Shown here one piece after another: positions 2,979-3,945 of a DNA stretch of 64,000 nt (positions are counted from its first letter, which is position 1; the number at the start of each line of letters is the position of its first letter). The DNA is from a virus. A program made the position numbers and the translations under genes. The DNA lies in the IMG/VR virus record IMGVR_UViG_3300030085_002431, positions 163,857 through 227,856 of that record, one strand, 5' to 3'. Below the pieces are notes generated by a model. That model ran no database searches. It worked only from the letters and a program-made list of their open reading frames with translations, and was not told the origin of the DNA.

Positions 2979-3013
2979 GTTAGATTAAAATGTATCACAT
3001 GTTACACATGTGG

Positions 3014-3042
3014 TTGACTATATAAAAGACAGGGACTATAAT
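3014..3042 (+). promoter_or_regulatory. Strong sigma70-type (early) promoter
   Basis: TTGACT (3014-3019), a 17-base spacer and TATAAT (3037-3042) match the host housekeeping promoter closely. The 66-residue gene starts 20 bases downstream. This would be read by unmodified host polymerase, so the small genes that follow are probably early. Confidence 0.85.
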
Positions 3043-3062
3043 GTCCTCATACGTTCATCCTA

Positions 3063-3263
3063 ATGCTCAGTCTAATACTGGCATTGACCTTAGCCCATCA
3101 TGATGATGCTAATCCATATGGTTGGCATATGAGTTGTGAAAGGTTTTTAGAGAAACGAGTTGAAATCCTTATGGACGACAACTTGGACCGACGTGCAAAG
3201 TATAACCTTATAGGTTATTTTAAATCGAAGGTTCCAGGTGAATGCAATAGTATACTGACTTAG
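3063..3263 (+). CDS. Small protein with possible signal peptide
   Basis: A 66-residue ORF directly behind a strong promoter. The first residues (MLSLILALTLAHHDD) are hydrophobic with a possible cleavage site, suggesting export or membrane association. The rest is charged, with two cysteines (SCERFLEKR and GECNSILT). No family recognised. Confidence 0.5.
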   Translation: MLSLILALTLAHHDDANPYGWHMSCERFLEKRVEILMDDNLDRRAKYNLIGYFKSKVPGECNSILT

Positions 3264-3298
3264 GACGCAAGTAAGTCGCGGAACGGAGCGTTCATCCC
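3262..3298 (+). ncRNA. Candidate Downstream-peptide (glutamine) riboswitch 1
   Basis: The leader contains GGACGCAAGTA, then GGAACG, a GAG loop, and CGTTCATCCC immediately before the ATG. GAACG (3281-3285) pairs with CGTTC (3289-3293), and GGA (3263-3265) can pair with TCC (3295-3297). These blocks match, in permuted order, the conserved blocks of the glnA/Downstream-peptide glutamine aptamers of picocyanobacteria and their phages. The GGAG at 3285-3288 is the only ribosome site, so ligand binding could control translation of the 53-residue ORF. Confidence 0.68.
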
Positions 3299-3460
3299 AT
3301 GTTAGAATTACTACTCTACAGTAATATTCACTGCATTGATGCTGTTGAAATGATTCAACGCATTGAAGCAAATAAAAATGTGGATAAAGTTATTCGCACT
3401 GAGGTGATTGAGACCTTAAAGGAAGCAACACCTGAGTGTAATTGGGACGCAAACGACTGA
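3299..3460 (+). CDS. Short peptide gene behind the riboswitch
   Basis: A 53-residue ORF (MLELLLYSNIHCIDAVEMIQ...ATPECNWDAND). The AUG abuts the 3' strand of the candidate aptamer, and its last codons form the 5' strand of the second aptamer. It has two Cys and a helical middle. Downstream-peptide riboswitches are defined by such short ORFs; the peptide's role is unknown. Confidence 0.65.
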   Translation: MLELLLYSNIHCIDAVEMIQRIEANKNVDKVIRTEVIETLKEATPECNWDAND

Positions 3461-3480
3461 AGGAACGGGGCTACAATCCC
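3443..3480 (+). ncRNA. Candidate Downstream-peptide (glutamine) riboswitch 2
   Basis: GGGACGCAAAC, then GACTGAAGGAACG, then ATCCC repeats the conserved blocks of the first element. GGGA (3444-3447) can pair with TCCC (3477-3480). The CGTTC strand of element 1 is replaced by GGGCTAC, so this copy is less canonical. It overlaps the stop codon of the upstream peptide gene and precedes a separate ribosome site (TAGGAG, 3488-3493). Confidence 0.55.
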
Positions 3481-3500
3481 ATTCTTTTAGGAGACCTACA

Positions 3501-3668
3501 ATGAACACCCTCAATCTCATTCGCAAGCAAATCGAAAAGCAGGCAGCACTGCATGACGCACAAATCTCTCATACCGCATATCGTGGTGTTGAGTATGACC
3601 AACGTTGTGTAGAGTCCAAAGAGACTCATGGAACTTTCTGCTATCGTGGCAAAACTTACACCAAGTAA
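3501..3668 (+). CDS. DUF4278-like small protein
   Basis: A 55-residue protein with two copies of the YRG motif: HTAYRGVEYD near residue 27 and FCYRGKTYTK at the end. This is the signature I associate with DUF4278, a family common in cyanobacteria and cyanophages and of unknown function. It has a good ribosome site and lies behind the second candidate riboswitch. The gene at 3769 carries another copy of the motif. Confidence 0.72.
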   Translation: MNTLNLIRKQIEKQAALHDAQISHTAYRGVEYDQRCVESKETHGTFCYRGKTYTK

Positions 3669-3672
3669 ACCC

Positions 3673-3768
3673 ATGCAACAATTAACAGTCGTTGGATTAA
3701 TTTCCTTAGGTTGTATTGCATTTATCGGAATGATGTATGGTGAGATTCTCCTCCTGAATAGGAGGTAG
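3673..3768 (+). CDS. 31-residue single-helix membrane peptide
   Basis: This very short ORF is nearly all one hydrophobic helix (LTVVGLISLGCIAFIGMMYG) followed by LLLNRR, giving a positive-inside end. Its stop touches the next ATG (TAGATG), and its last codons (AGGAGG) provide that gene's ribosome site. It resembles small photosystem or inner-membrane peptides in size only; no identity is claimed. Confidence 0.5.
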   Translation: MQQLTVVGLISLGCIAFIGMMYGEILLLNRR

Positions 3769-3945
3769 ATGGAACACTACACTTATCATCATGATGATAA
3801 GGACAAAGATAGTAGACCACCAGCATGTTATCAACTCACATATAGAGGTGTTAACTACTGGTCCTGTTATCAAATCCACTTGGATGAATGGTTTGAAAAA
3901 TTATATACAACTTCAGCATTTTCTGAAGATTTAAAGGGGAGGTAA
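3769..3945 (+). CDS. DUF4278-like small protein, second copy
   Basis: A 58-residue protein with a His/Asp-rich start (HYTYHHDDKDKD) followed by CYQLTYRGVNYWSCY, the DUF4278-type motif, and a charged C-terminus. It has a strong coupled ribosome site and is last in the small-gene operon before a terminator. Confidence 0.68.
   Translation: MEHYTYHHDDKDKDSRPPACYQLTYRGVNYWSCYQIHLDEWFEKLYTTSAFSEDLKGR

Follow-up and report, generated by a model that had tools for sequence, protein, structure and literature searches.

A cyanophage glutamine riboswitch candidate with a permuted core nested in its P3 helix and small genes in its aptamer loops

The closest described systems are the two classes of glutamine riboswitches. 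The glutamine-I class (glnA motif, RF01739) shares with the phage element considered here P1 (CGUUC/GGAACG), P2, the CGx linking strand with its 19:41 pair, loop E and P3, as well as the DUF4278 genes found downstream in the hosts (PMC6316151), but is ~55 nt long, compared with 417 nt here, has G at residue 19, where the outer core of the phage element usually has C, and contains neither a permuted second core in P3 nor genes of 160–200 nt in the P2 loops. The host glutamine riboswitches are ON switches, some of them located ahead of DUF4278 genes, and DUF4278 spans the N-terminal part of IF17, the glutamine synthetase inactivating factor (PMC6316151). The glutamine-II class (Downstream-peptide motif, RF01704) has in common with the phage element the pocket residues (in the crystal structure, C1:G40, G18 in a triple with G2:C39 and the long-range pair 19:41; PMC6698751), short downstream proteins and the picocyanobacterial setting, but carries an H-type pseudoknot after GGAACGG, in place of which the phage element apparently has a conserved P3 and loop E. 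Tandem riboswitches also place two pocket cores of the same kind in one leader, but as independent units in series, whereas here the cores are interleaved and have a common helix. A rotated strand order with the pairing kept is shared with natural permuted RNAs (hammerhead, twister, 5S rRNA and group II introns), and the 2023 list of known permuted RNAs names no riboswitch (PMC10085705). Among phages, the accessible text of two reports gives Rfam-annotated glnA elements for cyanophage S-CREM1 (PMC9964418) and the marine methylophage Melnitz (PMC9004378); the S-CREM1 match, which belongs to the same family, is 99 nt long, enough for a nested copy. This text describes no nesting and no loop genes for either element, and, taken together with the accessible text on tandem glnA RNAs (PMC2864571), no nested or permuted form of glnA.

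The element lies in a 64,000-nt stretch of DNA (hereafter, the window; all features are on the + strand) that covers positions 163,857 to 227,856 of the 250,613-base virus record IMGVR_UViG_3300030085_002431. The gene at 34–717 is presumably psbD-like, judging by the look of its protein; together with DNA matches to T4-like cyanophages, it points to a cyanomyovirus as the probable origin. A blastn search with 2990–3700 as the query matched 422 phage records, every one of which carries the name Synechococcus, Prochlorococcus or cyanophage. The initial annotation of the window proposed two tandem glutamine-type riboswitches on tiny genes, on the strength of two GGACGCAA...GGAACG blocks. Both blocks are confirmed, at 3263–3285 and 3445–3467, and the pattern GGACGCAAN{4,14}GGAACG, which occurs twice in the window, is absent from 100 shuffles. 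The association with small genes, one of them DUF4278-like, stands as well, but the tandem layout does not, given that the 19:41 pair covaries as expected under nesting. Instead of two riboswitches in series, the region contains a single 417-nt element (3052–3468), the outer 5′ strand of which (CGTTCATCCTAATG, beginning at 3052) had been missed: its CGTTC (3052–3056) is located ~210 nt upstream of the blocks, ahead of the ORF at 3063–3263.

The outer, glutamine-I-type aptamer consists of a 5′ strand CGTTCATCC at 3052–3060 and a 3′ strand GGAACGG at 3462–3468, with the rest of the element between them. Outer P1 is made of CGUUC (C1–C5), followed by A6 (3052–3057; invariant in 29 aligned compact relatives), and GGAACG with G41 (3462–3468; placed by the 19:41 pair and the alignment of the compact relatives). 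In outer P2, UCCUAA (3058–3063), which takes in the initial A of the ORF1 start codon, pairs with UUAGGA (3260–3265), which contains the ORF1 stop codon UAG. The outer linking strand CGC (C17, G18, C19) and the 5′ half of loop E come next (3266–3273; RF01739 alignment of relatives and 19:41 covariation), and loop E itself joins AAGUA (3269–3273) with GAA (3459–3461). P3 is formed by AGUCG (3274–3278) and CGACU (3454–3458), which covary in relatives; the segment that combines the P3 3′ strand with the GAA half of loop E (3454–3461) contains the ORF2 stop codon, and its assignment draws on covariation and on the fixed position of this stop in homologues. The core occurs a second time, in circularly permuted form, within the P3 arm, so that P3 is common to both cores. 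P1 with the adjacent P2 is located at 3052/3462 in the outer core and, permuted, at 3289/3280 in the inner one. Here, the P1′ hairpin GGAACG-GAG-CGUUC (3280–3293, with G41′ at 3286; 19:41 covariation) is followed by the P2′ 5′ strand UCCCA (3295–3299; pairing test on ORF-holding P2′), which extends to the initial base of the ORF2 start codon, and, across the loop, by the P2′ 3′ strand UGGGA and the inner linking strand CGC (C17′, G18′, C19′; 3443–3450; comparison of relatives and 19:41 covariation). The inner core has no loop E and its junctions are shorter than the outer ones. The permuted order perceived in the initial annotation is thus real, the inner core being circularly permuted and nested in its outer counterpart. 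The same annotation held that the second copy had lost its CGTTC strand and might be a divergent variant. However, the CGTTC at 3289–3293, which had been assigned to the first copy, pairs locally with the preceding GGAACG and belongs to the inner core, where the partner set includes CGCAA (3448–3452); decay of the second copy is unsupported.

The strand order is the same in every relative compared: CGTTC-A-P2 strand / loop / P2 strand-CGxAAGTA-P3 strand-GGAACG-short loop-CGTTC-A-P2′ strand / loop / P2′ strand-CGxAA-P3 strand-NAAGGAACG. Each of the P2 and P2′ loops contains either a short hairpin or a small gene. Among the 101 unique complete elements of this kind (composites), 31 have no gene, 39 have the inner gene only, 12 the outer gene only and 19 both, as does the window composite. 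The hairpin ATTCGCTATTCGCAAATAGCGAA is a recurrent P2 or P2′ filler in ORF-less composites (L035, L072, L108, L123, L126 and numerous others), perhaps a palindrome that spreads. In three composites (L478, L480 and L313), the core is partly deleted or altered, with the GGAACG junction lost or a truncated unit fused to ORF2, and these are possibly decaying; another variant (L050) has a longer P3 (GAGCATA/TATGCTC) and an additional hairpin next to the inner copy.

The pairing between residues 19 and 41, numbered after the glutamine-II crystal structure (PMC6698751), distinguishes nested from tandem folding. Nesting implies that the partner of the outer residue 19 immediately follows the last GGAACG and that the partner of the inner residue 19 opens the short loop. 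In the window, 19:41 is C:G at both sites. The nested pair is standard at both sites in 101 of the 101 composites and, among 289 parsed composites, once the apparent exceptions L138 and L144 are set aside as parse artefacts, in all but two (L354 and L731). Changes of 19:41 at the inner site are confined to a few lineages; in a targeted search for composites with a C at the beginning of the short loop (inner-junction C41), the inner strand was CGG in all eight cases, as nesting predicts. The helices themselves covary too. P3 shows compensated variants (AGUCG/CGACU, AGUCA/UGACU and GGACGGC/CCGCCC) and an eighth pair that varies (U-A, A-U or G-C), and permutation tests for covariation in P2, P2′ and P3 gave z-values of 4.7–13.7; the stems of ORF-holding loops pair better than with shuffled partners (z = 7.2 for P2 and 9.4 for P2′). 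In the 29 compact sequences, 99.7% of the pair cells are standard, 12 pairs have changes on both sides, and neither the paired fraction nor the covariation score was matched in any of 500 shuffles; as the structure was drawn by the authors, the slid controls on this set are biased in its favour, a bias that does not affect the 19:41 test and the follow-up search.

Two ordinary tandem aptamers, each folding on its own, would correspond to a unit A, from the outer CGTTC to 3285, and a unit B, from 3289 to 3467. Each of the units does get its own weak Rfam match in some composites (27.8 and 35.3 bits in L042; also in L548 and L549), and certain glnA RNAs are reported in tandem in the accessible text of PMC2864571, but of the 101 composites, 14 are variable, and the tandem pairing breaks 19:41 in 13 of these; in the set of 289, it fails throughout the two mixed classes (33 composites). 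Furthermore, loop E forms in neither unit, GAA being absent from unit A and AGUA from unit B; the two halves are placed such that nesting alone joins them, and in the short class neither unit has a P3 of its own; the tandem arrangement is highly improbable. The chance that the blocks are DNA repeats or protein-binding sites without a riboswitch function is negligible: no match in the window reaches an Rfam riboswitch cut-off, as such an origin would have it, but two-sided covariation, the Rfam matches of relatives and the conservation of the pocket all speak against it. Comparison among the relatives establishes the nested architecture and the placement of the ORFs.

The failure of Rfam to recognize the window itself has a simple cause, namely, that ORFs of ~200 and ~150 nt split both cores, and the Rfam models do not span such lengths. 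The Infernal search put forward with the initial annotation yielded no riboswitch match in the window at the gathering threshold, and in 3100–3700 at E ≤ 10, it gave unrelated weak matches only, none of the glutamine type. The proposed membership in the glutamine riboswitch family is nevertheless borne out by ORF-less relatives (L030, L041, L093, L002 and L042), which pass the RF01739 cut-off of 35 bits. In L030 and L041, the RF01739 alignment joins the outer halves across 38 additional nucleotides in P3 and scores 43.6 bits; in L093, there are 41 additional nucleotides, and the score is 38.4 bits. This P3 insert (38–41 nt) is the inner copy. RF01704 (cut-off 33 bits) also matches L093, at 34 bits; with this model, relatives other than L093 have non-standard pairs in the H-type pseudoknot helix 3′ of GGAACGG. 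The pattern CGGAACGN{1,12}CGTTCATYC gave scattered matches to unrelated bacteria in genome contigs and is uninformative because it is largely self-complementary.

A pattern scan of viral contigs returned at least 120 stretches, some of them outside cyanophages; in the true relatives among these, the two copies are often 180–200 nt or ~40 nt apart. A covariance model built on the composite (R1) matches S-PM2 (107.6 bits) and Bellamy (81.9 bits), in both of which the stretch is unannotated. In Syn9, gp196, gp197 and gp198 correspond to the three genes and lie between nrdB and talC. The composite is common in cyanophages and invisible to Rfam where its loops hold genes. When 386 cyanobacterial genomes were searched with R1 under strict filters, nine matches of 50–61 nt were obtained, and those shown in the alignment are ordinary single aptamers with P3 closed, which suggests, without proving, that the hosts lack the nested form.

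ORF1 (3063–3263; 66 aa, phrog_6471) lies within the outer P2 loop and ORF2 (3299–3460; 53 aa, phrog_504) within the inner P2′ loop; homologue searches were anchored on the ORF proteins so as not to favour loci with the RNA motif. In 77 of 78 loci, ORF1 has CGTTC ahead of it and CGxAAGTA at its stop codon, and 67 of 74 ORF2 homologues have both flanking halves. Both genes are subject to purifying selection, with the median dN/dS of 0.115 and 0.26, respectively. As the initial annotation noticed, the second block overlaps a stop codon (UGA, 3458–3460); the position of this codon within the block is unchanged in 67 of the 70 homologues with a downstream block, the last ORF2 codons (WDAND*) are aptamer sequence, and third-position entropy is zero in the last five. 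The P1′ loop contains GAG in 37 of 57 composites with ORF2, compared with 0 of 44 without it (related composites counted individually), and GGAG at 3285–3288 is likely to be the ORF2 ribosome-binding site. A common origin of ORF1 and ORF2, suggested by their similar layout, was rejected, no similarity between the two being detected by BLASTP. The ORF1 and ORF2 mRNAs (window and homologues) fold better than codon-shuffled copies by ~18 and ~10 kcal/mol, compared with 3 kcal/mol for other window genes and 7 kcal/mol for DUF4278 genes; these mRNAs may be selected for compact structure, but the excess is not specific to them and is only suggestive, because DUF4278 and other genes show a smaller one.

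The composite is followed by a DUF4278-like gene predicted to be under its control (3501–3668; 55 aa). The protein is a strong member of phrog_545 and scores 22.4 bits (E = 1.6e-4) with the Pfam DUF4278 model (PF14105), below the curated cut-off of 25.3; a full composite is located upstream in 69 of 75 loci of its relatives. A second small gene, at 3769–3945, has a weak DUF4278 match (E = 0.019) and no composite ahead of it. When the 417-nt element is folded without the platform, pair probabilities are ~0.9 in P1, P2, P1′ and P2′ and 0.2–0.4 in P3, which is thermodynamically weak alone. When the platform is included (3046–3503), the probability is 0.0 for outer P1 and 0.99 for a competing hairpin (3457–3490), in which CUGAAGGAA (3457–3465) pairs with UUCUUUUAG (3482–3490), adjoining the Shine–Dalgarno sequence AGGAG (3489–3493). 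The aptamer and the blocking hairpin are therefore predicted to be mutually exclusive, with an OFF state when free of ligand. One G/A with C/U pair of the blocking helix covaries (22 A-U, 14 G-U, 9 G-C and never an A-C clash; p = 0.0015), the covariation of the helix overall being modest (3.74 pairs observed versus the mean of 3.26 and the maximum of 3.77 in shuffles). Composites with CGGAAGTA seem to use another platform.

By analogy with the host ON switches ahead of DUF4278 genes and the relation to IF17 (PMC6316151), and in keeping with the folding model, the phage element is most likely a translational ON switch. In the ligand-free state, the strand CUGAAGGAACG would block the DUF4278 ribosome site by pairing with the sequence there, and when glutamine is plentiful, P1 would capture GGAACG and free the site. 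Translation of ORF1 and ORF2 is probably coupled to the aptamer fold because the first bases of their start codons are part of P2 and P2′, and the putative ORF2 ribosome site is in the P1′ loop; a ribosome halted at the UGA of ORF2 would, in addition, disrupt the blocking hairpin. We infer that glutamine is, very probably, the ligand, that two sites are occupied, that the direction is ON and that the ORFs are controlled.

Altogether, the probability that this is a phage-borne glutamine riboswitch, with two pocket cores in one RNA, the permuted one nested in the outer P3, and acting as a translational ON switch, can be put at roughly three in four. Direct control of three phage genes, two of them inside the loops of the element, by two glutamine pockets, one permuted and nested, with the translation of the loop genes competing with the folding of the sensor to give a cooperative or self-tuning nitrogen response, is a tentative proposal, somewhat short of an even chance. 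The inner core, given its missing loop E and short junctions, may not bind, in which case only the outer aptamer would sense glutamine, and the inner copy would be a structural remnant of a duplication, extending P3 and hosting ORF2. This is unlikely: the pocket residues CGUUC, A6, CGC and GGAACGG are kept in the inner copy, along with a compensated 19:41, and such conservation is hard to explain for an unused pocket. It is somewhat doubtful that the ORFs are passengers, merely tolerated by the P2 loops and translated independently of the fold. Composites with neither, one or both ORFs (31, 51 and 19 of the 101) indicate that the element persists without them, but the presence of GGAG in the P1′ loop tracks that of ORF2, start and stop codons touch the stems, covariation persists in the ORF-holding P2 stems, and the folding excess of ORF1 and ORF2 goes beyond that of other window genes, with DUF4278 genes also in excess. 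Compared with the open-licence literature, the phage element appears to be the first natural riboswitch aptamer in a circularly permuted form and the first riboswitch with conserved protein genes in aptamer loops; given this coverage, its novelty is probable rather than certain.

The region upstream of the element contains a candidate sigma-70 promoter, recognized by sequence (TTGACT-17-TATAAT, 3014–3042). A short inverted repeat with varying arms surrounds the -10 box (~3032–3046 in the window and the same place in relatives, e.g. GGTCTATAATAGACC), the arms having at least 6 bases in 64 of the 101 composites versus ~7 in shuffles. The repeat may serve as a regulator site; alternatively, it may form a 5′ hairpin, provided that the late-promoter-like CTAAATA/CTATATA immediately upstream directs transcription as well. 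Upstream of the promoter, there is a candidate site for the nitrogen regulator NtcA (GTAN8TAC, 2992–3005); sites of this kind, already known in cyanophages (PMC3037559), precede 73 of the 101 composites, compared with 1.4 in shuffles, and lie ~58 nt before the aptamer in most of them, so that transcription may also follow the nitrogen status. The combination of an NtcA site, a glutamine switch and a DUF4278 protein suggests that cyanophages copy the nitrogen circuit of their hosts.
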